DNA of 64,000 bases, from positions 9,176,001-9,240,000 of the forward strand of contig NC_133296.1 of NCBI RefSeq assembly GCF_005239225.2, given 5' to 3'. Positions 8,858 through 64,000 of this stretch are shown here, piece by piece. The notes below the pieces were generated by a model. The model did not search any database and was not told the origin of the DNA. It saw only the letters and a program-made list of their open reading frames with translations. The stretch is from Populus alba (taxonomy: Eukaryota; Streptophyta; Magnoliopsida; Malpighiales; Salicaceae). Position numbers and translations under genes: made by a program. Within the stretch, counting starts at the first letter, position 1. Each line of letters begins with the position of its first letter.

Positions 8858-9931
8858 TGTTTCGCTATTTCTAGTGATGTTTTCTATACTCTAATCTTTC
8901 TACCTTAGCACATTGAGGATAATGTCTCATTTTGGTTAGGAGGAAAGGATAGTAGTTGATATGTTAAAAAAAAAAAAAAGTAACTGTGTTTTCTATTTCA
9001 TAAACTATTTGCAAAACTGTTGTTACTAGGATGACAGAGTAAAAGAGTTTTTTTTTGGTTAAAGTGACTCTTAAGACGCATCTTAGTAAACATTCTTAAC
9101 AAGGTCTTATCAGAATACTTCTTGAAATATTCAGGTTTACAAACTCTGGTATTGTTATCACTTGATTCTGCTCATATGCTCATTTAACAAGTATTCTTAA
9201 ATCTTCATTTTCACACGCACACTTTAACATATGATTGTGGGATGTACATTGGATTATTACATTATTTATGTTCTTTTGTTAAAGGTAACAACTAAGGGAA
9301 AGGGATAATTTGGAAAAAAAAAATAGATAAGTTTGGTTTCATAGCCTCCTTAATCTAAGCAATTAAGCCCAAAGGGGTGTTTTAACACGTAATACCCTAA
9401 AGTCAACTGACTTGGGAGCTATTGGCCTAACGCTTGTTACATGGGTTGAGGAGAAAAGCGTAAGGGAATCAAACATTGCACTATCTACATATCAGTATCT
9501 GCAACCCGAGTTAAGCTCGTAGGGGTGTCTCAATACCTAATAACTAAGACCAACTGATTTGAGAATCATTAGCCGAAAGCTCGTTACATGGGTTAAAGAT
9601 GCATTGGGTTTTAAGTTATATATATATATATATATAAAAGAAGATAATAATCTCAACCCAAGGAAGTTAACCTTAAACATTAGAACAAAATTTTGTTTTC
9701 TTCCAAGTAAAGCCCCATAACTATATGTTGATATTTTGAGCACAAAAGAAACGTTTATTAATATCTTGTTTAAGAGGCATTGAGCAGTTATATGAATTTA
9801 ATTAGAGTTTGTTTATCTAGATAGATTAATAGAAGTTGAATGATGAATGCCTTGCTTTGTGGAATTTGCAAATTGTTTTTCTATATTAACACTTTGATTA
9901 CTAGGGACTCATAATAAGCTAGTTGGGGATG

Positions 9932-10851
9932 TGTGATTAGTACTTAAAAGTACTTTTTATCAAAGTTTTATATCATCATTTTGCACTTGAAGTCAATAAC
10001 TCAACTAAAGCATGTTTTATAATAATATACCTAATAATATAAGATACTTTAATTTTATGGTAAATGTTCATCTTAAATGCAGGCCTATCACATAAATGAA
10101 AGGATTGATTGATGAGTTTAAGTATTGAAATTGAAAGGACAAAGAGAGGGCCAAACTTAGAAAAAAGATGTTGGTGCAGTCCAAATTGGAACACTGTTCG
10201 GTAATTCGATCATATCTCGAGTTCTAGATGTCCAAATGACCTTAATTTTTTGGACAGATTCGGTAAGACATATGCCTACAACTTTCATGTGGAGTCCAAG
10301 ATTTAAAAATGCCGTTTTCAAGTCCAAATTATAGCAACAACAGAGAAGTTCGAATCTATCCTGTAGCCCGGACATTATTCAGTGTTCAGCCCATATCTCG
10401 AGTTTTAGAAGTCCAAATGACCTCAATTTTTTTTCCTGGAAAGATAAGACAATTTCTTATAACTTTCATGCGTACAGGTGGTTCCTGTTCTGATGCTAGC
10501 AATGATGTTTTATTCAGATAATAAGATAATGATTTTCACAAAGTCAAGAGTTGGTCACCCACTCAACAATTAGTCATCAAATCAATAGTTCTAAATTTTG
10601 ACCTATAAAAGGAGGCATTTGCCATGCATTTAGGGGCTTGGTTATTCAGATCAAGAGCTTGCTCTTGCTCTCTCTCTGTCTCTCTCTTTATATATTTTTT
10701 TTGTAATTCTTAAGTTTTGCTTTCATTAATATCTTATTTATGCTTTTCATTTCCTGTCCTTTACTTAGTTAACTTGTATCTTATTTATGTTCTTAGTTTG
10801 TTTATTTATGTTTCTCTTCTTCGTTATGTTTAGCTAAGTTTATTATGTCAA
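9932..10851 (+). repeat. Gypsy-2 LTR (left ~920 bp), promoter included
   Basis: Begins TGTGATTAGTACTTAAAAG after a weak polypurine stretch (AGTTGGGGATG). It contains two diverged copies of a ~100-bp segment (10200-10290 and 10385-10475, sharing CATATCTCGAGTT and GTCCAAATGACCT) and a TATA box (CCTATAAAAGGAGG, from 10602). The right part is missing because gypsy-1 copy 1 starts at 10852. Confidence 0.85.
10602..10615 (+). promoter_or_regulatory. TATA box of gypsy-2 LTR promoter
   Basis: CCTATAAAAGGAGG, conserved in the other LTR at 38701-38714, with pyrimidine-rich sequence (CTCTCTCTGTCTCTCTCT) about 70 bp downstream. Transcription from the LTR is inferred. Confidence 0.6.
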
Positions 10852-11843: not shown

Positions 11844-12047
11844 CCCTTATTTGCTGTTTTTTTTTTTTTGGTAAGCTGACTTATGTATTAAAAGAAAATG
11901 ATACAAAGAATATAATGGGCATACCCAAGATTTACAATGAGGACAGAAACGAAAACCAACAAATGGCTACAGGCTAGCCACAACAAAACAAAAACTTGGA
12001 CCAACTAGATATGCTAGGGGTACAAAAACAACTAGCTAAACATCAAA

Positions 12048-15702: not shown

Positions 15703-15740
15703 AGGGAAATAGAGAGGAGTACCTAACATCAACACATGGA

Positions 15741-17284
15741 TTACCTTGACTTGCCCCCCCTCGAGGAGCCAGATTTCTTACTCTTCTTTGAAAAGCCTGG
15801 AGAACCCGTTTTCTTTTTTTCTAGAGAGTCTCTAGCCTTGCTAGCTAACTGATTAACAAAAGTTTCCCCGTCAGAAGAAATCGGACTTTGCGGACTTGTT
15901 GGGATCAGTGACGTCGACTCCTTATCATCATCTTCCTTACCTGTACCACCTCCCATAACTCCAATATCAACATTCACCTCATGACTAACAGGGTTCATGG
16001 TTGCATTACAGATGGTTGAACTTTGATCTAAAGAAGTACATGCATCCCCTTCCTCCGGCACCATGTCTGCTCGTAAGCTCTTCAAAATAAGAGGAGAGGT
16101 AGGATTTTCATCTTCATAACAACCAGCATTGGGCACATCTAATGTCGCAGATTCATTCGTATTACAATCAGCACTCTGTAAAGCAGATGCTAAACAACCA
16201 TTCTCATTACAATTAAGCTCTTTAGATGCCAAACAATCATTCTCACCAATCGTAACACCCTTATTTCGTTTACCAACTACCTGCCATTGAAGCTGATTCT
16301 GCTTATTATCTGCATGTTTAGAGTTCACAGCTCCTATTTTCCTTTTGCCCTCTGCCCCCATTGTACGATCATCAACTTTACTGGTAGCACATATCGCTGT
16401 GGTATGTCCAAAGACATTGCAATTATTGCACCTTGAAGGAATCCATTCATAATCCGCTGAAATTGTTATGAAATAACCCATTTGGACAGCGAAGGTCGTA
16501 TTCCTTCACCAGCGTTTTCGAAGCTTCTATCTCAACGCAAACTCTTGCGTAGCTAAGCCTTTTACGCAACAATGTAGTAAGGTCAGCATGAAGGGGAACC
16601 CCAATAGCACTCGCTACACAACTCAGCCCCTTAACAGTCCAATACTCGAGAGGAACATTGTAGAGCTTAACCCATACCGGAACTCTATCCAGATCATTTT
16701 CAAAAATTGCATGTTCGGATGCCAACGTTTAAGCACCAAAGGTCTGTTGGCCATGTGCCATGGGGCTCTCTCCAGAACATTAGTGGCGCGATCGACAGAA
16801 TCAAAAGTGAAGAGAAAAGAATCCATTATCAGAAGATAAAACTTCGGATAGACCGTGGGAGCCCCATATTCTTTTAGCAATAGAATTAACAACAGGATAG
16901 GGTAATTTCTGACCCACGAAATGACCAACTAGAGTGGATTTCCAAAGTTCACAGCCATCCTCAAACACATCAAAGTGGAGGAGCTACTGTCACACGACCA
17001 TCAGTTATTGCGGGGGGAGCAAAATGCAAGTTACGGACTGGATTCATATCAAGGGACATCCTACCCTTATTTTCATCAACATCAGAGCCCTTCAAAGCAT
17101 TTAAAAAATTCAATTTGGGGCTAAGGTGTAGCTGTTCTTGTTGCTTAGACCCAACCTTCAACTCATCACCTTTAGAACCCAACACAGGATTCATGTCATG
17201 ACTATTTAGCATGTCTTGGAGCTCTAATTGTAAAGTATGTCCAGATTTAACTCCATTGTGTTGTTCAGTGTCAGAGCTAACCAT
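15741..17284 (-). pseudogene. LINE C ORF1, frameshifted
   Basis: ORF1 from the ATG at 17282-17284 to a stop at 15741, 39 bp before the ORF2 ATG. It shows the same DUF4283-like and CCHC regions as 4348-5646, and in this copy the complete C-terminal tail is visible (LASKARDSLEKKKTGSPGFS and a final basic SSRGGKSR). Frame shifts occur near 16970, 16700 and 16470, for example GAAATAACCC where other copies have GAATAACCC. In a functional relative the product would coat LINE RNA; this copy would give only fragments. Confidence 0.88.
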
Positions 17285-17464
17285 TGAAACAAATTTGACA
17301 GCAGAACACAAAGACAATTTGGCAGCATACAAATACTAGAAAAAACTCAGTCCAAGAAGCACTAATAAGCGACCAGCACTATGATTGGAACACCGATCAG
17401 TTCACACATCCCAACGGTTCAAAGGAAGATACACATGTTATGTATAACATATTCAAAAATCAGC

Positions 17465-17974
17465 ACAGTTTAACGGTTGGATCGCCGCAGATCTTAATTA
17501 TACCGAAACTGACCTGAGAATGACGACCTTCTGTTGAACATGTAGACAACGTTGCTGGAGGCTTAATTTCTAATCTCCACCGTTCAGAATGTGTATCATA
17601 ACCAGATGCATCACATATCCAAAAATAAGGTTGATCCAACGGTGGAAGAAGGAGAAATATGCCGGCGGCTCTGACTGTTCCGAGAAGGATTTCTCCAGAA
17701 ATATTCAAATGGCTGGCTTCCGCAGGAGGAATCCAATATGGACGATCCCTCTGGACAGAATGTAGGCAATATAGATGTTCACAACATACCAAAAAATAGT
17801 CTGGATCCAACGGTATAACAAGGCAAAACGGGCCGGCGACTCTGACAGCACTAGGGGGTTTTCCAGAAAATTTCAATTGTCCAGATTTCTTAAACGGAGG
17901 AAGCTTTAGAAGATCCCTCCGGTCAGAATGTAGACAATAGTTCAGTTCACAACATAACCAAATCTTGGCTTGAT
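17465..17974 (-). repeat. LINE C 5' leader: three ~170-bp tandem units
   Basis: Units 17465-17635, 17636-17806 and 17807-17974, the third copy of the same array. In all three LINE copies the array is free of stop codons in one frame yet lacks any ATG. Confidence 0.75.
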
Positions 17975-26197: not shown

Positions 26198-26290
26198 TAG
26201 CTCTTGTGATTGGCCCAATTGGTACCTCCAATGGATCATTGGCATGATTACGCTTGGTGTTGGGCTGATCCACATCACTTTTACTTGCTA
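26198..26290 (-). pseudogene. Short gypsy pol C-terminal fragment
   Basis: About 90 bp on the minus strand coding for a pol-tail phrase (VDQPNTKRNHANDPLEVPIG then PITRAK), the region just upstream of a 3' LTR in chromovirus-type gypsy elements. It is related to, but clearly different from, the gypsy-1 tail, so it belongs to a further family. Too short to classify. Confidence 0.55.
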
Positions 26291-26304
26291 ATAGATCTAT
26301 AAAA

Positions 26305-26715
26305 GTGCCTAGAGGAATAGTTGAGGATGTGTTAGTACAAGTTGATAAATTCATTTGTCCTGTGGATTTTGTTGTCTTGGATACACAACCTGTTGAAGCA
26401 TGTAATTCAATTCCTGTCATTTTAGGACGTCCATTTCTTGCCACTTCTAATGCATTGATTAATTGTAGGAATGGACTGATGAAGCTATCATTTGGAAACA
26501 TGACATTGGAGATGAATATTTTCAACATTTACAAGCAACCTGGAGATGATAATGATTTACAGGAAGTGGACTTTATTGAAAAATTAGTTCATGATCAATT
26601 TCAAACCACTTCCAGTGAAACTGAGATTGATGAATCTGATGATTTGCAAATGGTCTACTTTCAGGAATCAAAGGCATGCAATTGGAGACCACAAATTGAA
26701 GAATTGCCATCATGA
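26305..26715 (+). pseudogene. Gypsy-2 protease fragment
   Basis: Begins VPRGIVEDVLVQVDKFICPVD and passes PVILGRPFLATSNALINC, the typical C-terminal half of Tat/Athila-type protease. The catalytic D-S/T-G part lies to the left and is missing. A stop at 26713-26715 interrupts a frame that carries on afterwards (PPKPELKSLPFNLKYSFLEE), the usual linker to RT. Confidence 0.8.
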
Positions 26716-27617
26716 TCAATTGAGCCCATACCCTCAAGTGTTCAACCACCAAAACCTGAATTGAAGTCGTTACCATTTAATCTCAAATACTCATTTTTGG
26801 AAGAAAATGAAACTTTTCCGGTAATAATCTCTTCCAAACTTAATGCACATCAAGAAGGTAAGTTATTACAAAATTTTGAAAAATGCACAAAAATGCATTA
26901 GGATGGACCATAGCTGACATAAAGGAATTAGCCCTTTGATTTGCACACACAGGATTTATTTGGAGGAAAATGCTAAACCCTCTAGAGAAAATGCAACGAA
27001 GGCTTAATCCTAATATGAAAGAAGTAGTGAAAAAATGAAGTCATTAAGCTTCTAGATAATGGAAATCATTTATCCTATTTCTGACAGCAAAATGGGTAAG
27101 TCCTACCCAAGTTGTACCCAAAAAGTCTGGAGTCACTGTGATAACGAATGAGAAAAATGAGTTAATTCCAACTAGGACTGTTACTGGTTGGCGCATGTGC
27201 ATTGACTATAGGAAACTTAATTCAATGACTAGAAAAGATCATTTCCCTTTACCTTTCATGGACCAAATCCTAGAAAGAGTTGCAGGTCATGAATTTTATT
27301 GTTTCCTAGATGGCTATTCAGGTTACAATCAAATTGAAATTGCATTGGAAGATCAAGAGAAGACTACTTTCACATGTCCATTTGGTACTTTTGCATATCG
27401 AAGGATGCCTTTTGGATTATGTAATGCACCAGCCACGTTTCAAAGATGCATGCTTAGCATATTCAGTGATATGGTTGAACGTTTTCTTGAATTTTTTATG
27501 GATGATTTTTCTGTTTTTGGTGATTCATTTGATGATTGTTTGACTAACTTAGAAAAGGTTTTGAGCAGGTGTGAAGAGAAGAATCTTGTATTGAATTGGG
27601 AAAAATGTCACTTTATG
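26716..27617 (+). pseudogene. Gypsy-2 RT, broken N-terminus and good core
   Basis: The N-terminal RT part (26716-27137) is shifted several times but recognisable (RRLNPNMKEVVKK, SPTQVVPKKSGV-like). From 27138 a clean frame holds GWRMCIDYRKLNSMTRKDHFP, FLDGYSGYNQI, TCPFGTFAYRRMPFGLCNAP and the catalytic FMDDFSVFG near 27500. LINE D interrupts after KCHFM at 27617; the frame is taken up again at 33275. Confidence 0.88.
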
Positions 27618-27825
27618 ATCCGCGGCGATCCAACCGTTAAACTGTGCTGATTTTTTAATATGTTATACATAACATGTGTATCTTCCTTTGAACCGTTGGG
27701 ATGTTTGAACTGATCGGTGTTCCAATCATAGTGCTGGTCACTTATTAGTGCTTCTTGGACTGAGTTTTTTCTAGTATTTGTATGCTGCCAAATTGTCTTT
27801 GTGTTCTGCTGTCAAATTTGTTCCA

Positions 27826-29368
27826 ATGGTTAGCTCTGACATTGAACAACACAATGGAGTTAAATCTGGACATACTTTACAATTAGAGCTCCAAGACATG
27901 CTAAATAGTCATGACATGAATCCTGTGTTGGGTTCTAAAGGTGATGAGTTGAAGGTTGGGTCTAAGCAACAAGAACAGCTACACCTTAGCCCCAAATTGA
28001 ATTTTTTAAATGCTTTGAAGGCTCTGATGTTGATGAAAATAAGGGTAGGATGTCCCTTGATATGAATCCAGTCCGCAACTTGCATTTTGCTCCCCCCGCA
28101 ATAACTGATGGTCGTGTGACAGTAGCTCCTCCACTTGATGTGTTTGAGGATGGCTGTGAACTTTGGAAATCCACTCTAGTTGGTCATTTCGTGGGTCAGA
28201 AATTACCCTATCCTGTTGTTAATTCTATTGCTAAAAGAATATGGGGCTCCCACGGTCTATCCGAAGTTTTATCTTCTGATAATGGATTCTTTCTCTTCAC
28301 TTTTGATTCTGTCGATCGCGCCACTAATGTTCTGGAGAGAGCCCCATGGCACATGGCCAACAGACCTTTGGTGCTTAAACGTTGGCATCCGAACATGCAA
28401 TTTTGAAAGATGATCTGGATAGAGTTTCCGGTATGGGTTAAGCTCTACAATGTTCCTCTCGAGTATTGGACTGTTAAGGGGCTGAGTTGTGTAGCGAGTG
28501 CTATTGGGGTTCCCCTTCATGCTGACCTTACTACATTGTTGCGTAAAAGGCTTAGCTACGCAAGAGTTTTGCGTTGAGATAGAAGCTTCGAAAACGCTGG
28601 TGAAGGAATACGACCTTCGCTGTCCAAATGGGTTATTCATAACAATTTCAGCGGATTATGAATGGATTCCTTCAAGGTGCAATAATTGCAATGTCTTTGG
28701 ACATACCACAGCGATATGTGCTACCAGTAAAGTTGATGATCGTACAATGGGGGCAGAGGGCAAAAGGAAAATAGGAGCTGTGAACTCTAAACATGCAAAT
28801 AATAAGCAGAATCAGCTTCAATGGCAGGTAGTTGGTAAACGAAATAAGGGTGTTACGATTGGTGAGAATGATTGTTTGGCATCTAAAGAGCTTAATTGTA
28901 ATGAGAATGGTTGTTTAGCATCTGCTTTACAGAGTGCTGATTGTAATACGAATGAATCTGCGACATTAGATGTGCCCAATGGCTGGTTGTTATGAAGATG
29001 AAAATCCTACCTCTCCTCTTATTTTGAAGAGCTTACGAGCAGACATGGTGCCGGAGGAAGGGGATGCATGTACTTCTTTAGATCAAAGTTCAAACCATCT
29101 GTAATGCAACCATGAACCCTGTTAGTCATGAGGTGAATGTTGATATTGGAGTTATGGGAGGTGGTACAGGTAAGGAAGATGATGATAAGGAGTCGACGTC
29201 ACTGATCCCAACAAGTCCGCAAAGTCCGATTTTCTTCTGACGGGGAAACTTTTATTAATCAGTTAGCTAGCAAGGCTAGAGACTCTCTAGAAAAAAAGAA
29301 ACGGGTTCTCCAGGCTTTTCAAAGAAGAGTAAGAAATCTGGCTCCTCGAGGGGGGGCAAGTCAAGGTA
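27826..29368 (+). pseudogene. LINE D ORF1, frameshifted
   Basis: Starts at the ATG at 27826-27828 and follows the same protein as 4348-5646 through the DUF4283-like region and the CCHC knuckle (CNNCNVFGHTTAIC near 28676-28720), ending at the basic SRGGKSR-type tail before ORF2. Breaks lie near 28020 (deleted base), 28405, 28565, 28980, 29090 and 29230. Not functional as written. Confidence 0.88.
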
Positions 29369-29407
29369 ATCCGTGTGTTGATGTTTGGTACTCCTCTCTA
29401 TTTCCCT

Positions 29408-32400
29408 ATGATTATTGGATGCTGGAATGTTAGAGGTTTGAATGATTCCCACAAAGCATTCAGAACTGCGTCAGCTCATCCATCAAGAGAGGATGGTTTT
29501 TTTTTTGGTTTGGTTGAAACTCGGGTTAGAGACAGGAATAAAGATAATGTTTCGCAACTTCTTCTGCGTAATTGGTCATTTCTTGTATTAATTATGATTT
29601 CTCTTGTCGTGGTCGTATTTGGGTTTGTTGGAATGCTGATTTGGTGAAGGTGGATGTTCTGGGAATGTCAGACCAGGCTATCCATGTTTCTGTCATGATA
29701 TTAGCTACCAATATCTGTTTTAATACTTCAATTATTTACGGAGACAATAATGCATCTGTACGTGAGGCTTTATGGTCTGATATTGTGAGTCGTAGTGATG
29801 GATGGGAGTCAACCCCATGGATTCTTATGGGCGACTTTAATGCTATCCGCAACCAGTCAGAGAGGTTAGGGGGGTCTTCTACGTGGGCTGGTCATATGGA
29901 CAGATTGGAAACATGTATACGTGAAGCGAAAGTGGATGATCTTCGGTATTCAGGGTATGCATTATACTTTGGACGAACCAATGTCCTGAGAATATGATTA
30001 TGCGGAAACTAGATAGAGTGCTTGTGAATGAGAAGTGGAATATGCGCTTCCTATTGTCGGAAGCGAGATTTCTTGCCTGCTGGTATGTCAGATCATTCTC
30101 CCATGGTGGTAAAAAGTCACTGGCAATGTTCAGAACATAAAGAAACCATTCAGATTCTTCGATATGTGGGATGGATCATGACGAGTTCATGCCCTTGGTG
30201 AAGAAAGTATGGGATCAGCATTCAGGAGGGTGTCCAATGTATCAACTGTGTTGCAAACTAAGGAAGCTTAAAGCAGGAACTTAAACATTTCAATAAGACT
30301 CACTTTCTCCAATATTTCCGATAGAGTCAAAGATGCAAAAGATCACATGGATAGGGCTCAACAAGCTCTGCATACAGCGCCTGAGGATCCAACATTGCGT
30401 ATGCGAGAAAAGAGATGCTGTTCGTAACTATGCTTCTACTGTCAGGCGGAAGAGTGTTTTTTCAGACAAAAGGCAAGGATACAATGGCTTAGCTTGGGGG
30501 ATCAGAATACTAGCTACTTTCACAAAATCAGTAAATGGTAGACAGAATAGAAATAAGCTTCTCTCGGTTACAAGGGAGGATGGAGAAGTCGCTGAAGGAC
30601 ACGAGGCAGTCAAATCAGAAGTAATTGCATACTTCCAGCGTGTATTGGGAGTGAAACAGATGCCTAGGGTCCTGAACGAGGAAGTGATGCAATCGGCAAT
30701 TATTTACAAATTGTCGGCAACTCAACAGCATGTACTAGCACAAGATGTCACAAGAGAGGAGATTAAGCATGCTATGTTTAGTTTGAAAAACAACAAAGCT
30801 CCTGGTCCAGATGGCTTCAACGCAGGTTTCTTCAAAAGAATGTGGCACATAGTGGGAAGATGTAATCAACGCTGTTAGCTCCTTCTTCCAGACTCGTAGA
30901 ATGCTTAAAGAAATGAATGCTACATCCATTTCCCTTATCCCTAAAGTTGCTAATCCTACGAGGTTGACAGATTTTCGTCCTATATCTTTGCTGCAATACA
31001 GTATACAAATGCATCGCGAAGATTCTAGCTGGGAGAATGAAAGTTGTTTTTACCATCCTTAGTAGGTCCGTATCAAACAGCTTTTATCTCTGGACGGAGA
31101 ATCAGCGACAATATTCTTTTGTCTCAGGAACTAATGAAAGGCTATCACACAACTACGGGTCCTGCTCATTGTGCTATGAAAGTAGACCTGATGAAGGCTT
31201 ATGACTCTGTTCGGTGGGATTTCGTTGATGCTACGTTGATAAAAATGGGATTCCCTAGAACAGTCATTGATTGGATCATGGTTTGTGTTACATCATGTCA
31301 ATTCTCAATCAACGTCAACGGTGAACTTGCGGGTTACTTCCAAGGGGGGAGAGGGCTGAGACAAGGTGATCCATTATCTCCATATTTGTTTGTCCTATGC
31401 ATGGAAATCCTGTCAGGGCTGTTCTGCAATATGAGTGCCAACCAAAACTTCAAGTTCCACTGGAGATGCAAGAAGGACAGCATTTCTCATCTTTGCTTTG
31501 CCGACGACTTGATGATATTCAGCAAAGGGGATGTACATTCAATCCGTATGATCAAAAATGTACTCACAGAGTTTCAGGTTCTATCAGGTCTATATCCAAA
31601 TCCAAACAAAAGTGACATCTTCTTGAGCGGTTCGTTAGGAGCTGAGAGGGAACAGATTATCAGTATTCTTGGGTTTAGAGAGGGGGAGCTTCCTATGAAA
31701 TATTTGGGAGTGCCTCTTATCTCGTCCAGACTAAAGGCTGTTAATTGTAAGGGCCTCGTGGATCGAAATTACCGCCAAAGTTCGACATTGGACCTGTAGA
31801 ACACTCTCTTTCGCAGGGCGAGTACAACTGATTAACTCAGTCTTATTCTCCATCCAGGTCTATTGGGCATCTCTATTCTATTACCTGGGGAAGTAGTGGA
31901 AAAATGTTGAGCAAATTATGAGATCCTTTCTTTGGTCAGGTTCAGATATGAGCACTACCAGGGCTAAAGTGGCTTGGGATCAGGTATGTCTTCCAAAAAA
32001 GGAGGGGGGGCTAGGCATAAAAAGGATAGCAGAATGGAACAAGATTGCCTTGTTGAAACATATTTGGAACTTGTGCAATGACTCAGATGGCTCAATCTGG
32101 TCTACTTGGATCAGATCCAATCTCTTGCGAGGTAGGAATTTCTGGACAATCAAGGCGCCAGGAAGCTGCTCTTGGGCTTGGGGAAAGATTCTAAAGCTCA
32201 GATCCTTAGCATGGCCGAAGATGAAGCACGTCATCGGAGATGGAATGACAACCTCTCTATGGTTTGACAATTGGCATCCTCACAGCCCGCTCGCTGATAC
32301 CTACGGTGAACGTTTCATCTATGATTCAGGTATGGAACACAACGCGAGAGTGAACGTGCTGATTAATAACTTAGAATGGAGAATTCCTATCACTCATGCT

Positions 32401-33069
32401 ATTGGCTGGCACCCCATTTTAGAAGCTATTCCTTCCACCTCTACTCCTAAGGGGCAAAAGGATGAGATTGTTTGGTTGGATTCGCCAAATCAGAGTTTCT
32501 CAGTCAAAGTAGCTTGGGAACAACTAAGAATTCATCATCAAATGGTTGATTGGCATGACATCGTGTGGTTCAAGAATGCTGTCCCAAGACATGCATTTCT
32601 TCTTTGGGTGGCTATCCAACGGAAACTCTCAACGCAGGATAGACTTCATCGGTTTGGTATTCATGGTCCCAATAGGTGCTCACTCTGTCTCTGCAATAAT
32701 GAAGATCACAACCACTTGTTCTTCGAATGCTCCTTTGCGAAAGCATTATGGTGGAATGTTTGTGATAGATGCGACATTCCAAGAATGACAAAAAGCTTGG
32801 ATGAATGGATTCGATTGGCCACTGTCTCTTGGCATGGAAAAAGTTTCGTCAACTTTTCTCGTAAACTGGGTTTCGCAGCTACAGTGTATTGTATCTGGCA
32901 AGAACGGAATGCAAGGATCTTTGCAGATGTGTCTAAAGCTTCGAATTTGGTTTTTGATCAAATCGAATGTATCATTCGTGATAAGCTTGTTTTGATGAGG
33001 AATGTTCAACAAACAGATGAAAACATAAGGATCCAAAGACTTTGGAGGGTCAATAACATGGACTCTTAA
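29408..33069 (+). pseudogene. LINE D ORF2, frameshifted (endonuclease, RT, zinc region)
   Basis: Begins at ATG 29408 (MIIGCWNVRGLN). Endonuclease GDFNAI near 29830, RT NNKAPGPDG near 30790, YDSVRWDFVDATL near 31200, RQGDPLSPYLF near 31360 and FADDLMIF near 31500 are all visible, and the zf-RVT cluster lies near 32680. At least ten one-base changes break it, for example near 29450, 29590, 29960, 30110, 30240, 30850 and 31770. The segment 31044-31799 keeps the RT catalytic core open. Confidence 0.9.
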
Positions 33070-33274
33070 TTTGATGTTTAGCTGGTTGTTTTTGTACCCC
33101 TAGCATATCTAGTTGGTCCAAGTTTTTGTTTTGTTGTGGCTAGCCTGTAGCCATTTGTGGGTTTTCGTTTCTGTCCTCATTGTAAATCTTGGGTATGCCC
33201 ATTATATTCTTTGTATCATTTTCTTTTAATACATAAGTCAGCTTACCAAAAAAAAAAAAAAATGTCACTTTATG

Positions 33275-35041
33275 GTAACAAACGGCATTGTACTTGGTCA
33301 CATTGTTTCATCGAAAGGAATTGAGGTTGACAAATCTAAAATCGAGTTAATTGCCAACTTACCAATACCAAAATCTGTTAAGGATGTTAGATCATTCTTA
33401 GGACATGCTGGTTTTTACAGAAGGTTCATCAAAGATTTTAGTGTAATATCTAAGCCCTTGAGTAACCTTCTAACAAAGGATAATATTTTTGAATGGACTG
33501 AACATTGTGAAGAAGCCTTTGTTAAACTTAAAAACTTGCTTACTTCTGCTCCTGTCATTCAACCTCCTAATTGGTCATTACCTTTTGAAATAATGTGTGA
33601 CGCTAGTGATTATGTCGTGGGTCCTGTCTTGGGACAAAGAAAAGAAAAGAAACCTTATGTGATTTACTATGCAAGTAAAACTTTAAATAGTGCTCAAATG
33701 AATTACACCACCACTGAAAAAGAATTACTTGCAGTAGTATTTGCTTGTGATAAATTCAGATCTTATCTTGTTGGCTCACCTATTTGTTTTTTTAGTGATC
33801 ATGCAGCATTTGAAATATCTTCTTTCTAAGAAAGATTCTAAGGCTAGATTGGTGCGGTGGATTTTGTTACTTCAAGAATTTGATATCACAATCAAAGACA
33901 AGAAAGGCACCGAAAATGTTGTTGCAGATCATTTGTCAAGATTGACAACAGATTCGAAATCTGACATCACACCAATCGATGACTACTTTCCCGATGAATC
34001 TTTATTTTCCATTTCTACGATGCCTTGGCTTGCTAATATTGTTAATTTTCTTGTTTCAGGACAATTGCCAGCTCATTGGAGTACCCAAGACAAAAGAAAG
34101 TTCTTGAACGAAGTGAAGAACTTTTATTGGGATGACCCTTATTTATTCAAATATTGTCCTGATCAAATATTTTGAAGATGCATTCCTGACAATGAGGTAA
34201 GTAGTGTCATTAAATTTTGTCATTCTGAGGCATGTGAGGGTCATTTCTCATCAAGAAAGACAACTGCAAAAATCTTACAAAGTGGATTTTATTGGCCCAC
34301 CATGTTCAAAGACTCACATGTATTCTGCAAGACTTGTGAAAATTGTCAAAAGTTGGGATCTATTTCAAAACGTCACATGATGCCTTTAAATCCTATTCTT
34401 GTCATTGAGATCTTTGACTGTTGGGGTATAGATTTCATGGGTCCATTTCCTCCATCATTTGGTTTCGTGTACATATTAGTCGCAGTAGATTATGTTTCAA
34501 AATGGATAGAGGCAATTCCAAGTCGAAACAATGATCACAAAACAATGATAAAACATCATTAGGTATGTCACCTTATAGACTAGTCTATGGAAAACCTTGT
34601 CACTTGCCTGTGGAAATTGAACATAAAGCTTATTGGGCTATTAAAGCTTTCAATTCAAACATTGATGATGCTAGTCAGCTGCGAAAATTGCAAATAAATG
34701 AGCTTGAGGAAATTAGAAATGATGCATATGACAATTCAAGAATTCATAAAGCAAGAATCAAAGAGTTTCATGACAAGAAAATACTGAGAAAAACATTCAA
34801 TGTTGGTCAAAAAGTCTTGCTTTATAATTCTCGACTCCATTTATTTCCTGGAAAACTAAGATCAAGATGGAGCGGTCCTTTTATTGTGAAACATGTGTAT
34901 CCATATAGGGCCTGTGATATCGAGAATCCAAAGAATGGCAATGTTTTCAAGGTAAATGGGCATCGGTTGAAAGTTTATTTTGACAATTTTTCAGTTGAAA
35001 ATGACTCTACTGAATTGAGTGATCCTGTATATAAAGATTGA
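33275..35041 (+). pseudogene. Gypsy-2 RNase H and integrase, deleted in the integrase core
   Basis: After LINE D the frame continues with GFYRRFIKDFS, then RNase H ([20 protein letters not shown]). A shift near 33800 moves it one frame on to VVADHLSRL. The integrase zinc region ends [12 protein letters not shown] and the first core acids are present ([20 protein letters not shown]). Near 34560 a deletion of roughly 120 codons removes the second and third catalytic regions; the frame restarts at [24 protein letters not shown] and runs through the integrase C-terminal part ([18 protein letters not shown]) to the stop at 35041. The missing section is partly preserved in copy 3 (63152-63868). Confidence 0.88.
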
Positions 35042-35251: not shown

Positions 35252-35800
35252 ATGGACACCACTCTTGAAAAATTTAAAAAGTATTTTCCCGCTCTGCCTC
35301 AGAATGCGATTACAAAAATTTACCGTGCTAGGTGTGAAAGATTAAGGTTGTTAATGAACCATGGAATTCCTGAAGATATTCATTGGCTGATTGAAGCAAA
35401 GGTCCGATTATCAGGTGAGTCCTCCAATTATTTCATTTCACACATGCCTAGAACAGGTAAAAGCACTTTTGCAAAGAAACGTCGTGCAAAACGACTGAAA
35501 GTCTGTCACAGATGTGCCAGATGGACTTGTAATGCGACATGTCGTTCTTTAGGAATGGTATCTATAAATCGTGAAGATAAAATACAATTCATTAAGGATG
35601 GCCTGAGTAAGGGGTCTTTAGATAATCTTTTGTTGACCCTTGAGACGCATCCTAGTGGAGATGTGCATCGTGTAATTCATGATTTATGGCCACAATTCCA
35701 TAAAGAACATGATCGACTTAGTCTTGGGAATCTGACTAAAAAATACCCTGTTTGCCAGTTTTTAAGAAAACTGGATGGGAAGCCTATCCCCGACCCATAG
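35252..35800 (+). CDS. Gypsy-2 ORF3, unrecognised 182-residue protein with a cysteine cluster
   Basis: A clean ATG-to-stop ORF (MDTTLEKFKKYFPALPQNAI start) between integrase and LOG. I do not recognise the family. The centre is very basic (KKRRAKRLK), followed by CHRCARWTCNATC, a CX2CX4CX3C cluster that could bind zinc or nucleic acid. No signal peptide or membrane span is visible, so it is not an obvious envelope-type protein, although that is the position where env-like genes sit in Athila-type elements. It stays open in an element whose pol is broken, which may mean recent death of the copy. Origin from the element or from the host is open. Confidence 0.6.
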   Translation: MDTTLEKFKKYFPALPQNAITKIYRARCERLRLLMNHGIPEDIHWLIEAKVRLSGESSNYFISHMPRTGKSTFAKKRRAKRLKVCHRCARWTCNATCRSLGMVSINREDKIQFIKDGLSKGSLDNLLLTLETHPSGDVHRVIHDLWPQFHKEHDRLSLGNLTKKYPVCQFLRKLDGKPIPDP

Positions 35801-36040
35801 AGAGCGTTTAAGCCGTTCTTGGACGTAAAACCAAGAAAAGATGTGAGCCACAATCACAACTACCTGTACATACATGCTTTGTCAAAATAAGTAAATAAAG
35901 AGAGAGAGAGTGTGAGAATACAGCTGGCCTACATATAGGTGGTATGATTGCATTTTCACTTTTTCATCTATAAATTCTTCTCTTCCATCCCTTCATTTCT
36001 ACTCATCTCATACATTCATCAAATATAGAAGTGTGTAGAA
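35801..36040 (+). promoter_or_regulatory. Putative promoter and leader of LOG
   Basis: 240 bp between ORF3 and LOG. It holds a GA repeat (35899-35910) and a TATA-like box (CTATAAATT, 35968-35976) about 70 bp before the ATG. A CT-rich, AG-poor leader (TTCTTCTCTTCCATCCCTTC) follows, typical of a plant transcription start. If real, LOG was captured together with its own promoter and could be transcribed independently of the LTR. No experimental support. Confidence 0.45.
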
Positions 36041-36694
36041 ATGGCAGGTTCCTCAAGTCATCACATAAAAAATATTTGTGTTTTCAGTGGATCCAGTCCT
36101 GGGAAAGAAAAAGAGTTTTTAGAATCAGCAAATCATCTTGGTCAGGTACTAGCTGAGAGAAAGATTCATTTAGTGTATGGGGGAGGCAGCCTTGGGTTAA
36201 TGGGAGGTGTTTCAATGGCTGCATTTTTAGGAGGCAGTCAAGTTTTGGGGGTTGTCCCCAAAGCTTTAGCAAATGGGGACATCATTGGAAAAACAATTGG
36301 AGAGGAACTACAGGTCCCAACAATGTCTGACCGACTGAATACCATGTTTAACCATGCTGATGCCTTCATTGCCTTACCAGGTGGTCTGGGCACATTGGAA
36401 GAGATCTTTCATATTTCATCTTGGGCCCAACTGCACATTCACCATAAACCTACAGGTTTGTTAAATGTTAATGGTTTTTATGATAAGTTGATGTCTTTCC
36501 TTGATCAAGCTGTGGAACAGGAATTTCTAACATCTTCAGCACGACAAATCATAATCTCTGCTTCTACTGCTGAACAATTGATTGACCAAGTACAATCTTT
36601 CATCCCTGTCATTGATCCTTGCATGAGTCGCCTAGATTGGTCAGCTAAGGAAAGCCGTAAAAAGCTTAGATTAGATTTGAGCCTTCATCTGTGA
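36041..36694 (+). CDS. LOG-type cytokinin riboside 5'-monophosphate phosphoribohydrolase, intronless, inside gypsy-2
   Basis: 217 residues, the normal LOG length, with ATG and stop intact and no intron visible. LOG enzymes release active cytokinin bases and ribose 5-phosphate from cytokinin nucleotides in the cytosol. Motifs: CVFSGSSPG (13-21), GGGSLGLMG (47-55), PGGLGTLEE (113-121, the PGGxGTxxE nucleotide-binding motif), WAQL (128-131) and KPTGLLNVNGFYDKL (136-150). The usual M-x-x-R-K-x-x-M reads MSDRLNTM (95-102), so Arg98 is kept and the Lys is Leu; the PGGYGT tyrosine is also Leu117. Activity is therefore uncertain. It lies between ORF3 and the gypsy-2 untranslated region, on the element strand. 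Typical plant LOG genes have several exons, which suggests a retrocopy. Confidence 0.88.
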   Translation: MAGSSSHHIKNICVFSGSSPGKEKEFLESANHLGQVLAERKIHLVYGGGSLGLMGGVSMAAFLGGSQVLGVVPKALANGDIIGKTIGEELQVPTMSDRLNTMFNHADAFIALPGGLGTLEEIFHISSWAQLHIHHKPTGLLNVNGFYDKLMSFLDQAVEQEFLTSSARQIIISASTAEQLIDQVQSFIPVIDPCMSRLDWSAKESRKKLRLDLSLHL

Positions 36695-36824
36695 AACCTT
36701 GTGATTGACCAAGTACAATCTTTCATCCCTGTCATTGATCCTTGCATGAGTCGCCTAGATTGGTCAGCTAAGGAAAGCCGTAAAAAGCTTAGATTAGATT
36801 TGAGCCTTCATCTGTGAAACCTTG
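36579..36824 (+). repeat. 123-bp tandem duplication of the LOG 3' end
   Basis: Bases 36579-36701 are repeated directly at 36702-36824 with no difference that I can see. The unit covers the last ~38 codons, the stop and a few bases of 3' flank. The first unit belongs to the intact LOG ORF; the second lies after the stop and is untranslated. Identity of the two units implies a recent event or an assembly artefact. Confidence 0.9.
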
Positions 36825-38088
36825 TGTCTTATGGTTTTATTAATAGCATATTATTTTGTTTTGTCACTTCTTATATTTGTTTAAGTGTGTTTCAGGTTTA
36901 TCATTGTTCGTTGTTTCAGGTGATGTCTTCCATACTATATCTTTCTACCTTAGGACATTGAGGACAATGTCTCGTTTTGGTTGGGGGGAGAGGGTAGTAG
37001 TTTAAAAAAAAAAAAACTAACCAACTAACTGTTTTTGTTTTTAAAAAACCATTTGGCAAAACTGTTATTACTAGGATGGCAGAGTAAAGAGGAATTATTC
37101 TTGAGACGCATCTTAGTTTTTTAAAAAATTTTCTAATGGTTATTTGCAATATTCATAACAAGGCCTATTAGAATACTTCTTGAAATATTCAGGTTTACAA
37201 ACTCTCGCATTGTTATCACTTGATTCTGCTCATATACTCATTTAACAAGTATTATTAAAACTTCATTTTCACACACACACTTTAACATATGATTGTGGGT
37301 TGCACATTGGATTATTACATTATTTATGTTCTTTTGTTGAAGGTAACAACGAAGGGTAAGGGATAGCATATAATTTGCAAAAAAAAATAAATGATGATAA
37401 TATTGATGATAATAAAAACGTAGATAAGTTTGGTTTCGTAGCCTCCCTAACCTAAGCAATTAAGCCCGAAGGGGTGTTTTAACACCTAATACCCTAAAGT
37501 CAACTGACTTGGGAGCTATTGGCCCAAAGCTTGTTACATGGGTTAAGGAGAAAAGCTTAAGGGAATCAAACATTGCACTATCTGCGTATCAGTATCTGCA
37601 ACCCGAGTTGTTAAGCTCGTAGGGGTGTCTGAACACCTAATGCCCTAAGACCAACTGGTCTGGGAGTCATTAGCCTAAAACTCGTTACATGGGTTAAAGA
37701 TACATTATGTTTTAAGTTGTATATGTATATAAATAAAATTAAAAAAAAAAAAGAGAAGAAGAAAGAAAAAAAAAAGAGAAAAAAAAAAGTAAATATAATA
37801 ATAATCCCAACCCAAGGAAGTTCACCTTAAACGTTTGAACATAATATTGTTTTCTTCCAACAAAAGCCCCATCATCTATGTTTTCATATATTGAGCATAT
37901 AAAAAGAAGGTTTATTAATATCTTGTTGAAGAAGTATGAAGCAGTAATATAAATTTAATGAGAGTTTGTTTATCTGGATCGATTAATAGAAGTTGAATGA
38001 TGAATGCCTTGCTTTGTGATACTTGCAAATTGTTTCTCTATTTTAACGCTTTAGATTACTAGGGACTAGTAATAAGCTGGTTGGGGGG
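36825..38088 (+). other. Gypsy-2 3' untranslated region with polypurine tracts
   Basis: No gene. It contains the ACATTGAGGACAATGTCTC phrase and a purine-rich GGTTGGGGGGAGAGGG (36978-36993). Then come AT-rich sequence, an A/G-rich stretch (37739-37790) and two related units (about 37440-37555 and 37606-37700) that share CCTAA..C..AAG.CAACTG.....GGGAG..ATT and CTCGTTACATGGGTTAA phrases. It ends in GGTTGGGGGG at 38079-38088 right before the LTR, the likelier functional polypurine tract. The region is also seen at 8880-9931. Confidence 0.75.
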
Positions 38089-38700
38089 TGTGATTAGTAC
38101 TTAAAAGTGCATGTTTATCAAGGTTTTATATCATCATTTTGCACTTGAAGTATCAATAACTCCTTAACTAAAGCATGTTTTATAATAACAAGTTTGATAC
38201 TATAAGATACCTTAATTTATGGTAAATGCTCATCTTAAATGCAGGCCTATCACATAAATAAAAGGATTGATTGATGAGTTTAAGTATTGAAAGTGAAAGG
38301 ACAAAGAGATGGCCAAACTTAGAAAAGAGATGCCGGTGCAGTCCATTTTATCTGGATGGAAAGGTAAGACAAAGGCCTACAACTTTCATGGGAGCCCAAT
38401 ATTTAAAAAGGCCGTTTTGAAGTCCAAACTGAAGGAACAACGAAGAAGTCCGAAGCTGTCCTGCAGCCCAGACACTATTTAGTGTTCAGCCCATATCTTG
38501 AGTTCTAGAAGTCCAAATGACCTCATCTTTTTTTTGTTGGAAAGCTGAGACAATTTCCTAGAACATTCCTGAGGATTCTGGGCAAATTATGATGTTAGCA
38601 ATGACGTCTTGTTCAGACAAGAAGATAAGGATTGTCACCAAGTCAAGATGTGGCCACCCACTCATCAATTAATTAACAAATCAATAGTTTCAAATTTTGG

Positions 38701-38711
38701 CCTATAAAAGG
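38701..38711 (+). promoter_or_regulatory. TATA box of gypsy-2 3' LTR
   Basis: CCTATAAAAGG, same place as in the LTR at 9932-10851, followed by a CT-rich stretch near 38765. Confidence 0.6.
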
Positions 38712-39436
38712 AGGCACTTACCATGTATTGAGACATCTTGGTTTTCAGATCAAGATCATGCTCTTACTTTCTCTCTTTGTATTGCTTATGTTTTGCTTTC
38801 ATTAATATCAAGTTTATGCACTTAATTTCCTTTCCTTTACTTAGTTAACTTCTTTCTCATTTATGTTCTTATCTTGTTCATTTATGTTTCTTTCTTTCAT
38901 TATGTTTAGCTAAGTTAATTATGTCAACGTGAAAAGGGTACACTAATGGTGTAAGAATAAGTATAATATAAACTTAACATGGACCTTAACGTTGGATACT
39001 AACATGTTTTATATTTGTTATCTTGTTCACTTTTAATACTTTGCTTGTTAAATGGTTAATCTAGATTTATGTTGTATAACACTTGGTACAACAAATATTT
39101 GGTACTTTCGTAGCCCATACTGTATGGTATAACCGACACCTGAGCTATGAAAGGGATTTGATTTGTTGTTAACACAAGTTATAATCATGAATGCCTGCCA
39201 ACATTTACAAGTATTAGCCTTATTTGAATAAGATAACTAATGTAATCATGTTAACAATTTATAATCTGATTGGAACCTCCTTTATGTGTGGTTTCCAATT
39301 GAGTAATAAAAGTTTATATTATACTTGTTTGAAGTACCATTAGTGGATCCTCTAACCTTGACATTTGTTTTTATCATTGTTTAATCCTTACATTAATCTT
39401 CCAACTCAAAGTTCTCATTAATTTCTTCCTTCTTTT

Positions 39437-39437
39437 C

Positions 39438-39479
<42 letters not shown>

Positions 39480-39650
39480 TATCTGTTCATAAACTCAGTA
39501 TATAGGCTGGAAACCTGTGACCCGATCTTTTAGATCATTCTCAGGTATAACAACACCACGTACTGAGTATTATTATTATTACTATTACTACTACTACTAT
39601 TGTTATTATTATCGTTATTATTGTTATTGTTGTTGTTATTGTGTTGTTAT
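39437..39650. repeat. ATT-type microsatellites in gypsy-2 LTR
   Basis: A pure ATT tract (39437-39480), then 39568-39650 with mixed ATT, ACT and GTT triplets, separated by ~85 bp of unique LTR sequence. Both lie inside the LTR and likely vary in length between copies. Confidence 0.85.
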
Positions 39651-39761
39651 TTATAATTTATACAATTAACCTCTCTGTGGTTCGACCCCGGTCTTGCCGG
39701 GTTATTTATTACTTCGACACTCCTGCACTTGGGAGAAGACATCAAGCTTTTGGTCGTGTCA

Positions 39762-40942
39762 CTTGCAAAACTTATTTTGTTTCTGTTGATTTCGTTCCTG
39801 CCATTCCACTATCATAATATTTTGATATTTGGCTATTGGTTGAGTCATTTTTCATCACTTTTGCATTTGTTTGTTTTTTTTATAAGTTCTGGTCCAAACA
39901 GATGTCAGATTCGTAATCTCGATTCTAAATCAGTGTTCTAAAATCTATTCATGTCTTCATCTTTTTTCTTTTTTTTTCCCCTGTCTATATCATGTATTCA
40001 CGAAGGGAGAGGGAACAGAGGATGATTGTAGATCAACAATGCAAAAGGCCAAGCCATGGTTTGGGGGTTTTAGAACGAGAAGTTGACAAGTGTAAAAGAT
40101 TGTTCTATGATCTTCAAGCTTCATGAGAAGAGGAGGTACAACGCCAAAAGAATGAAAGACCAAGAAGAGTCGCTGTGGTTATCATTCAAAAGGATGTACG
40201 CAAGTGGTTAGTACGACATTCTTATTTGAAATTCTTGTCAGTCACTACTTCTATACAATTTTGTTGGAGTAAGGTGTTAGCAATAAGAGAATTTCGAAGG
40301 TTTAAACAAGAGGCTACTGAAGTCGCTATTCATTCTATTCAAGATTCGAGGGCGAATCTTCTTGAAGAGGGAGGGAATGATATGGTTCAGCCTTGTGATA
40401 CGAACCAAGTAAGGTCAGATTCATATTTTTGCGTAAAAAGCGCAACAGTCATAATTTTTAATCCGACCATAATTTTTAATCTGACTGTGGTTATCATAAT
40501 TTTTAAGGTTCGCCTACCTTGGGATAAATATCCAGGTCAATTGGAGTTCGGGAAGGCACCGCAATACTGGTCAACAGAGGTCGTACGAATTTTGTTATTT
40601 ACTTCCGTTTGACTTGTGGACTTCCTATTTGGTTAGGATTCTTTTCCTACAAGGATGTGGCAGCTAATTTTGGGAATTTCTTGGTTCCACAAGGGTCTTT
40701 AATGAGCAACAATATAATCTGCAAGTGTGGCAGGGATTCATTAATGTTTCAGAATCCTTTTCTTATAAGGATTCCTTATTTATCCTAGCCACACAAGGAA
40801 AGAAGGGCTGGTGGTATTTAATGAAAAATTAATTATTTTTATTAGTTTAGGGTTTTTGATTCAGTTTTGTATGGGGTTAGTTCAGCTCACAAGAGTAAAT
40901 CCATTAGGGTTACTTTTAGGAACCTTTTAAACACATGTAACC
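39762..40942 (+). mobile_element. N element copy 3, decayed, both ends truncated
   Basis: Plus-strand N remnant: end of leader (39762-39985), ORF remnant from ATG 39991 (MYSRREREQR) with a stop after LQAS and further changes, polypurine tract (AAGAGGGAGGGAA, about 40365-40377) and part of the LTR (40378-40942). The LTR has an expansion in which CATAATTTTTAA is repeated three times (40450-40505). The second IQ-like motif (SIQFCWSKVLAIREFRRF) is still legible. It is more diverged than N copies 1 and 2 and thus older. Confidence 0.75.
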
Positions 40943-62992: not shown

Positions 62993-63018
62993 AGAAATAG
63001 CAAACACTGACAAACAAA

Positions 63019-63151
63019 GGCTCAAATCCAATCTAATCGTTTTATGGCTTTTCTTAGTTGACCAATTTATACGACTCATGGAGGGATCAATTATAGGGAT
63101 AAAAGATTGTAATTGGTCAATCAATTGTTTAGCAGTAGCAGCAAAGATTAT
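63019..63151 (-). pseudogene. LOG C-terminal fragment in gypsy-2 copy 3
   Basis: About 43 codons aligned with the LOG C-terminus of 36041-36694: TAKQLIDQLQSFIPIIDP then SMSR.NWS.K.S.K..RLDLSL. By eye about 30 of 43 residues agree, so the two LOG sequences diverged well before the nested insertions seen elsewhere. The normal stop is changed (TGA to TCA) and the frame runs on. It is fused upstream to integrase (YRTAYKT) across a deletion that removed the integrase C-terminus, ORF3 and most of LOG. Confidence 0.8.
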
Positions 63152-63868
63152 GTTTTATAAGCAGTTCGATAAGCCCAAAATGCATCATTAAGTCTTAAAG
63201 ACCCGTTTTTCCGATTAGGGTTCACTATTTTCTCCAAGATTTGTTTGATCTCCCTACTAGCAAGTTCTACCTATCCACTCATCTGAGGGTGATAAAGGGT
63301 GGCAACTTTGTGTGTGATTCCATATTTCTTCATTAAAGACCCAAATGGCTTTTCGTATAAATGTGTTCCACCGTCACTTTTCATGGCTCAAGGATTCCAA
63401 ATTGACTTAAAATTTTTTTCTTTCAAAAAATTTTATCACTATTTTGTGATCATTGTTTCGACTTGGAATTTCCTCTATCCATTTTGAAACATAATCTACT
63501 TCGACTAATATGTACAAGAAACCAAATAATGGAGGAAATGGACCCATGAAATCTATACCCCAACAGTTAAAGATCTCAATGACAAGAATAGAAATTTAAA
63601 GGCATCATGTGACGTTTTTAAATAGATCCCAACTTTTGACAATTTTCACAAGTCTTGCAGAATGCATGTGAGTCCTTGAACATGCCTTAGAATGACAAAA
63701 TTTAATGACACTACTTACCTCATTGTTAGGAATGCATCTTCGAAATATTTGATCAGGACAATATAAGGGTCATCTCAATAAAAGTTTTTCACTTTGTTCA
63801 AGAACTTTCTTTTGTCTTGGGTACTCCAATGAGCTGGCAATTGTCTTGAAACAAGAAAATTAACAATA
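63152..63868 (-). pseudogene. Gypsy-2 copy 3 integrase, decayed
   Basis: Read from 63868 leftward, the zinc region and core are legible but carry several stops and shifts. It contains the middle of the catalytic core (second acidic block and HPQ region) that copy 2 lacks, showing that the copy 2 gap is a deletion. Just past the HPQ block the glutamate region reads as [19 protein letters not shown]. Confidence 0.75.
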
Positions 63869-64000
63869 TGATACGATCCAGGCAAGGTTAAATTCGGATT
63901 TGACGTAAAATGTGCAACTATCCTAGTTTTTATGTCACACTCCTATCAAACTTGATTTACTTGGCTTTCCGAGAATTGGTGTCTTTGCGTGACCACGTGA
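63869..64000 (+). repeat. M LTR with large internal deletion, runs off the window
   Basis: Starts TGATACGATCCAGGC at 63869 inside gypsy-2 copy 3 integrase and, after about 80 bp, jumps to LTR sequence near the 3' end (GTCACACTCCTATCAAAC). It reaches the near-palindrome (GCGTGACCACGTGA) at the window edge. Confidence 0.8.

Follow-up and report, generated by a model that had tools for sequence, protein, structure and literature searches.

The window analysed here, a 64-kb stretch of Populus alba DNA, contains at 36041..36694 on the + strand an intact, intronless LOG-type open reading frame (ORF) of 217 codons, identified by an ORF scan, domain profiles and comparison with its genome copies. Profile searches matched it above cut-off to PF03641 (1.3e-37) and TIGR00730 (3.1e-51), and it carries both a PGGLGTLEE motif of the PGGXGTXXE type and the catalytic arginine and glutamate. 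Its best relatives of solved structure are Arabidopsis At2g37210 (LOG3) and At5g11950 (LOG8), following the numbering used in PMC4979012.

The ORF lies in a broken copy of an LTR retrotransposon, in which RNase H, integrase, ORF3, LOG, an untranslated stretch of ~1.3-1.4 kb and a 3′ LTR follow one another on the + strand. An earlier sequence-only reading of this DNA had placed the intact LOG ORF between integrase/ORF3 and the untranslated region plus 3′ LTR, on the element's strand, and the ORF, domain and flank data agree with it. A protease-region and reverse transcriptase (RT) part containing stops (approximately 26278..27616, +; RVT_1 1.7e-29 in 27060-27647) is followed by a foreign L1-type LINE of ~5.6 kb, which sits inside the RT (27619..33262, +, boundaries approximate) and is flanked by a 16-bp target duplication, AAAATGTCACTTTATG. 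Beyond it lie an RT connection/RNase H segment with its frame broken at the end (33272..33826, +; ORF list and domain profile), an integrase core fragment with an rve match of 0.0002, below that profile's cut-off (34302..34562, +), and the integrase C-terminal part (34565..35041, +; ORF list). The integrase frame, like that of RNase H, is interrupted, and part of the integrase has been deleted after ~34553. ORF3 (35252..35800, +; 182 codons), which domain profiles relate to viral NABP and carlavirus cysteine-rich proteins, separates integrase from LOG.

Downstream of the LOG stop codon, self-comparison revealed a 125-bp stretch that repeats the LOG 3′ end exactly and in tandem (36579-36703, repeated at 36702..36826, +); it lies outside the ORF and is absent from the other copies fetched from the genome (see below), where the next stretch begins at +685/686 and not at +809. 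Comparison with the fetched copies delimits the untranslated region from LOG to the polypurine tract (36827..38079, +) and the 3′ LTR (38091..39762, +), which is ~1.67 kb long and of the form TG...CA. The polypurine tract occupies 38080..38090 (+), and the upstream LTR pieces in two fetched copies (L019 and L020) start at the base that corresponds to 38091. Another G tract resembling a polypurine tract occurs at 36978-36990, ~1.1 kb before the LTR-adjoining one. The LINE at 27619-33262 also has a counterpart within the window, at 11857-17497, which is 98.8% identical and in the opposite orientation.

Sequence comparison further identified a second element copy on the − strand, comprising RNase H/integrase fragments (63431..63888) and LOG residues 171-217 (63011..63151), which are joined to the integrase by a deletion that removed ORF3. 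The LOG fragment thus immediately follows integrase, in the same orientation, as the sequence-only reading had described, and is identical to the window LOG at 33 of 47 residues (70.2%); pN/pS for this pair is 0.62 on 47 codons. A related copy, ~80% identical, consists of untranslated region and part of the LTR (8861..10851, +).

Lineage of the element

The RT of the poplar element, for which profile support comes from RVT_1, is presumably Athila-like. Athila elements carry an extra ORF between pol and the 3′ LTR, and the poplar element likewise carries ORF3 and LOG there. The stretch from RNase H to integrase contains no extra RNase H: in the window it is filled by the RNase H end and the zinc-finger part of the integrase, and in copy L012 the gap between the two matches is ~490 bp. 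Ogre/Retand (Tat) elements of angiosperms carry an extra, archaeal-type RNase H at this place, according to the accessible text of PMC6317226. Because this extra domain is missing from its expected place, we favour Athila over Tat and rule out the latter lineage. The earlier label of Tat/Athila-type therefore holds for Athila but not for Tat, and the LOG-bearing element is, as judged from its sequence, an Athila-like Ty3/gypsy retrotransposon.

The LOG-bearing family in the P. alba genome

Searching the P. alba genome with LOG gave 1782 first-look candidates, of which 150 were scored; these all matched over the full length at 94-100% identity, 139 of them with no internal stop. The same search with ORF3 gave 1703 first-look candidates, of which 150 were scored (93-100% identity); unscored candidates enter as first-look counts, and the identity and length figures cover the 150 scored rows of each search. 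With 150 of 150 scored LOG matches full length, a chance ORF is ruled out.

We fetched 20 LOG copies, spaced three or four rows apart over the first 60 of the list, with 4.5 kb upstream and 3.5 kb downstream, and compared their flanks, a comparison that the sequence-only reading had proposed. Downstream of LOG, the element's untranslated region and LTR are present in 20/20. Upstream, ORF3 is found in 19 copies (in two of these as a 63-residue stump only), integrase in 15 (four of them with short divergent stretches), RT in 12, and either RT or integrase in 16; in the fetched stretches of the other four (L017, L019, L020 and L031), neither RT nor integrase was matched at E 1e-10. In the four copies with divergent integrase (L021, L025, L029 and L030), ORF3 is preceded by just a C-terminal integrase stretch (70-72%), with RT unmatched across the 4.5 kb fetched; they possibly represent another subfamily.

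Since LOG-picked copies are biased for LOG presence and carry no information on how frequently LOG is lost, we also picked copies by ORF3, taking every seventh listed row (ranks 7 to 140, 20 of 150) and reading 901 bases downstream. LOG sequence follows ORF3 in 19 of these 20 places, 12 of the 20 being also among the 150 scored LOG rows. In 14 the LOG is full length and ungapped (12/14 stop-free), and the remaining five comprise two with one gap, one in two pieces, one reduced to residues 1-130 and one decayed (65%, four stops). Many copies with common flanks rule out a single nested host gene. That LOG belongs to a retrotransposon family, as the sequence-only reading had argued, is strongly supported by the full-length matches (150/150), the shared flanks (20/20 downstream, 19/20 for ORF3) and the presence of LOG in 19/20 ORF3-picked copies; LOG is not confined to a single locus, nor is the fragment at 63019 closer to a host LOG.

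Between ORF3 and LOG (window 35960-36040), 22 of 25 copies contain CTATAAAT ~70 bases ahead of the LOG start, the other three having TTATAAAT by eye. CTATAAAT may be a candidate internal promoter, in a region that is equally conserved as a whole.

Copies L017 and L031 have one deletion junction in common: the deletion took away RT, the integrase core and the greater part of both RNase H and ORF3 and left LOG intact. Both encode an ORF of 968-988 aa ahead of LOG; in L031, on which the domain search was run, this ORF contains gag (4.1e-21), an integrase zinc-binding domain (5.9e-11) and a protease match below cut-off (0.0075). A primer binding site for tRNA-Asp, a feature linked to Athila, follows the 5′ LTR at 18/18 bases in L017 and 16/18 in L031, and none was found in L019, L020 or the window. 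Over 1078 bases, the 5′ LTRs of L017 and L031 share 99.4% and 99.1% identity with the 3′ LTR of the respective copy, and the primer site follows; these two copies therefore seem to represent a non-autonomous subfamily with LOG that transposed recently.

Selection on LOG

Substitution rates between element LOG copies, a further comparison suggested by the sequence-only reading, were taken from the 14 full, ungapped ORF3-picked LOGs. They give a pN of 0.0183 and a pS of 0.0519, a ratio of 0.35 (codon bootstrap 0.21-0.62), which omission of the other six of the 20 may have lowered. Selection keeps LOG in these young poplar copies. Among 25 LOG-picked copies, pN/pS was 0.21 for LOG (25/25 usable, three with a stop), 0.37 for ORF3 (14/25 usable, five with a stop) and 0.50 for integrase (10/25 usable, four with a stop), and the same 25 LOG copies compared with the window alone gave 0.42. 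A neutral simulation with like picking returned 0.47-0.67 when all copies were of one age and 0.00-0.48 when ages were mixed. The LOG-picked value of 0.21 is biased low by the picking, and we therefore relied on the ORF3-picked 0.35. Splitting the variants of the 14 LOGs into singletons (27 non-synonymous to 21 synonymous) and shared ones (10 to 8) adds nothing to the case for selection because the non-synonymous share is about equal in the two classes.

A viral-type neighbour

ORF3 matches PF05515 Viral_NABP (3.8e-7) and PF01623 Carla_C4 (2.7e-5), scoring 30.7 against a gathering cut-off of 23 and 24.5 against 20.9, and thus above both; 32 and 30 of 38 aligned ORF3 relatives match the two viral profiles at E 0.001. 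Its basic tract, KKRRAKR, is followed by a C-x2-C-x4-C-x3-C finger. Among the 120 ORF3 relatives listed out of 637 reported protein matches, partial ones included, the finger pattern is present in 82 and finger plus basic tract in 66. Carlavirus and allexivirus cysteine-rich proteins (PF05515, PF01623) have the same layout of a basic tract and then a four-cysteine finger, but ORF3, unlike them, is carried by a retrotransposon, and its homology to them rests on profile scores. A predicted structure of ORF3 had a pLDDT of 59.6 and a second structure model one of 38, and both were discarded.

Viral proteins of the NABP/CRP kind, which combine a nuclear localisation tract with a zinc finger, are described as silencing suppressors in the accessible text of PMC12172455, where the chrysanthemum virus B member is a transcription factor inducing hyperplasia. 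ORF3 was rejected as env: the env position invoked in the sequence-only reading is right as a place but not as an identity, as ORF3 there resembles a viral cysteine-rich protein. Its presence suggests that plant RNA viruses and retrotransposons have exchanged genes. In the viral contigs scanned, no relatives of LOG, ORF3 or the ORF3 alignment were found.

Host LOGs and relatives in other plants

A query with the C-terminal 69 residues of LOG3 separated the 150 scored rows into three places matching at 83-89%, over residues 13/14-65 only, and 147 matching at 51-54%, over residues 1-69 (3-69 in one). The three look like host LOG exons, separate from the element LOGs, and further host exons may fall below the 150 scored rows.

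At the protein level, 8000 candidates were scored against the window LOG and the best 120 listed, 119 of them at 80-96% and one Xanthoceras protein (P0109) at 63%. Exactly 217 aa were found in 99/120, and the named sources are P. alba, P. x canadensis, P. trichocarpa, P. nigra and Xanthoceras. The 120 relatives listed in a second LOG search include 13 named Xanthoceras clusters together with proteins of Acer, Reevesia and Melia; with Populus, these genera are rosids of different orders. The Acer protein (P0255) is one chain of ORF3 (9.7e-51, without the finger), a linker (1.4e-8) and LOG, and in two Xanthoceras proteins (P0109 and P0242) a piece matching the L031 gag-protease ORF (1.5e-14 and 1.5e-13) stands between two LOG parts.

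We built a LOG tree with host genes, which had likewise been suggested, from 68 rows: 66 of 213 aligned plant rows, hand-picked for spread, and two of the three bacterial LOGs found among genome contigs, as outgroup. The 41 element-type rows form one clade (99/99), apart from the 25 sampled host rows, with named members from Populus, Reevesia, Melia, Acer and Xanthoceras, and the poplar-type rows form one clade within it (100/99). Most of the host rows were gathered by a single similarity search, and an unsampled host group may have been the donor, or there may have been a second capture. The poplar element clade also takes in three entries (P0087, P0105 and P0289, from P. trichocarpa and P. 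nigra) that NCBI names as LOGL10 host enzymes.

Active site and prenyl pocket

In CgLOG, Arg99 and Glu122 are proposed to be catalytic, and Met96, His97, Lys100, Glu125 and Trp129 form the prenyl site, whose residues are identical in AtLOG3, OsLOG and CpLOG, as described in the accessible text of PMC4979012. We mapped the pocket positions through AtLOG3 in the alignment onto 120 poplar-type rows (the window and 119 listed clusters). The catalytic Arg is kept in 114 and Glu in 116 of these, pocket Met in 119 and Trp in 115, whereas pocket His, Lys and Glu are found in 0/120 each. His is replaced by Ser (91), Phe (22) or Tyr (7), Lys by Leu (80), Met (37), Ile (2) or His (1), and Glu by His (117) or by Arg, Tyr or Gln (1 each). 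All 14 full-length ORF3-picked copies have Ser, Leu and His at the three sites and keep both catalytic residues, and the Pro of the PGGXGTXXE motif is replaced in 2/14.

The 17 Xanthoceras-type rows, including the Acer protein, retain His, Lys and Glu in 17/17 and Met and Trp in 16/17 each; the Acer protein alone lacks pocket Met and the catalytic Arg. Between the two types, 16 intermediate rows (among them three from Reevesia and one from Melia) have His in 12 cases, with Lys exchanged for Met or Ile in 14 and Glu for Gln in 15; the catalytic Arg of the single Melia protein is replaced by Gln. On the tree, this series reads as a stepwise pocket change inside the element lineage. The poplar rows have another main residue at 22 of 95 host-invariant positions, so the pocket change does not stand alone. 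Conservation in poplar rows, calculated from 206 aligned rows after seven of the 213 that belonged to none of the sets had been set aside, correlates only weakly with that in host rows (Spearman coefficient 0.17, p 0.02), with p 0.14 for invariant versus variable host columns.

Compared with the cytokinin riboside 5′-monophosphate phosphoribohydrolases LOG3, LOG8 and CgLOG, the poplar element LOG has the family, the PGGXGTXXE motif and the catalytic Arg/Glu in common, but it is without pocket His, Lys and Glu, is intronless and is 51-54% identical to LOG3 over the C-terminal 69 residues. The accessible text of PMC11593424 notes that plant LOGs with common motif residues can differ in main product. 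The poplar protein could also be weak or dead, its catalysis lost, because CgLOG lost almost all activity when catalytic or AMP-binding residues, apart from one serine, were replaced by alanine (accessible text of PMC4979012).

Discussion

We consider it probable that an Athila-like LTR family carries LOG as an accessory gene, captured once, kept by selection, presumably to the element's benefit, and likely encoding an active hydrolase with a changed pocket and substrate. A single capture of a plant LOG coding sequence would have preceded the split of the Populus, Reevesia/Melia and Acer/Xanthoceras element lineages and would have placed LOG behind integrase, adjoining the viral-type cysteine-rich ORF; selection would have retained it since. 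The poplar protein is most likely still a nucleoside-5′-monophosphate phosphoribohydrolase, as suggested by the catalytic Arg/Glu and phosphate loop in nearly all rows, and its altered prenyl pocket points to a substrate that is probably not, or not mainly, a cytokinin nucleotide.

The sequence-only reading had proposed that the element may raise cytokinin. Release of cytokinin from nucleotides by the element LOG, favouring cell division or meristem fate wherever the element is expressed, would be in keeping with LOG family membership, the PGGLGTLEE motif and the conserved catalytic Arg/Glu, and the Xanthoceras-type elements, with pocket His/Lys/Glu in 17/17 rows and Met and Trp in 16/17 each, make it possible for that group. 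We nevertheless regard it as unlikely, and as unsupported for the poplar copies, where pocket His/Lys/Glu are replaced in 120/120 rows and the window LOG scores 115.9 against a cut-off of 300 for the NCBIfam cytokinin equivalog NF058542, a model that may not fit plant enzymes. Because the catalytic core is kept and the cytokinin pocket lost, a changed substrate is favoured over cytokinin release. It also appears doubtful that hydrolysis was lost and the LOG fold retained as a scaffold that binds nucleotides or dimerises, for instance to bind element RNA or particles: the ORF is under selection despite losing the counterpart of the Lys that binds adenine in CgLOG, as such a role would allow, but the catalytic Arg (114/120) and Glu (116/120) persist in poplar-type rows and both are present in 14/14 ORF3-picked copies.

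The youth of the copies, at 94-100% identity, and the similar non-synonymous share of singleton and shared variants (27 to 21 and 10 to 8) are what one would expect of a functionless passenger that is open only because there was little time for decay. Such a passenger is improbable in view of the ORF3-picked pN/pS of 0.35, with its upper bound of 0.62, and of the proteins from other plant families, which at ~57-63% identity have preserved both the motif and an open frame. Confusion of a host gene or retrogene family with element cargo, which the host-enzyme name LOGL10 given by NCBI to some of these proteins might invite, is highly improbable and is refuted for the copies examined: the downstream flank is common to 20/20 and ORF3 to 19/20, host exons are distinct, and the three named LOGL10 rows lie inside the poplar element clade. 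An accessory LOG with a changed substrate is accordingly the reading we prefer among these. A more specific version, which we put forward tentatively, is that a rosid-tree element lineage carries a two-gene cassette, in which a viral-type zinc-finger protein, a possible silencing suppressor or transcription factor, accompanies a LOG that was stepwise re-pocketed to another nucleotide. If so, a selfish element would have turned a hormone enzyme into its own tool against the host cell.

The abstract of Steinbauerova et al. (2011) reportedly mentions two Athila-like elements with similarity to LOGL4. Their study is cited by Alvarado-Marchena et al. (2022), who report, in the accessible text of PMC9289625, that consensus sequences of LTR elements contain a YgdH/LOG domain in two Citrus species and, once the five-copy filter is dropped, in P. 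trichocarpa. To the sequence-only reading an intact hormone enzyme at the env position had been unfamiliar; LOG domains in LTR elements are in print. Those elements are Ty3/gypsy with a LOG domain, as here, but theirs is a domain-level survey, whereas we describe whole ORFs in many copies, selection, a fixed viral-type neighbour, one clade and pocket change. A Phalaenopsis Ty3/gypsy lineage with an AlkB m6A demethylase, described in the same source, likewise has an extra enzyme ORF fixed in one lineage; the enzyme differs, and its activity was shown in vitro, whereas the LOG here is known from sequence. Extra ORFs counted in PMC6317226, in its accessible text, are those of at least 250 codons, and ORF3 and LOG are both shorter. 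Term searches of the accessible text of a review (PMC7264820) and a Retand paper (PMC11963269) returned no mention of cytokinin, Citrus or Populus. Within the open-licence full-text literature, we found neither a further LOG-retrotransposon paper nor an NABP-type viral ORF in plant retrotransposons; LOG in LTR elements is already known, and its extent, selection, viral-type neighbour, single clade and stepwise pocket change were not found in that literature.

The series from the Xanthoceras type through the Melia/Reevesia type to poplar offers a natural experiment in which an element reshapes a captured enzyme. Were silencing to be released, the many young, open hormone-enzyme ORFs could shift the balance of nucleotides or cytokinin. 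The Populus LOGL10 entries that fall in the element clade (P0087, P0289 and P0105) can mislead counts of the LOG gene family.
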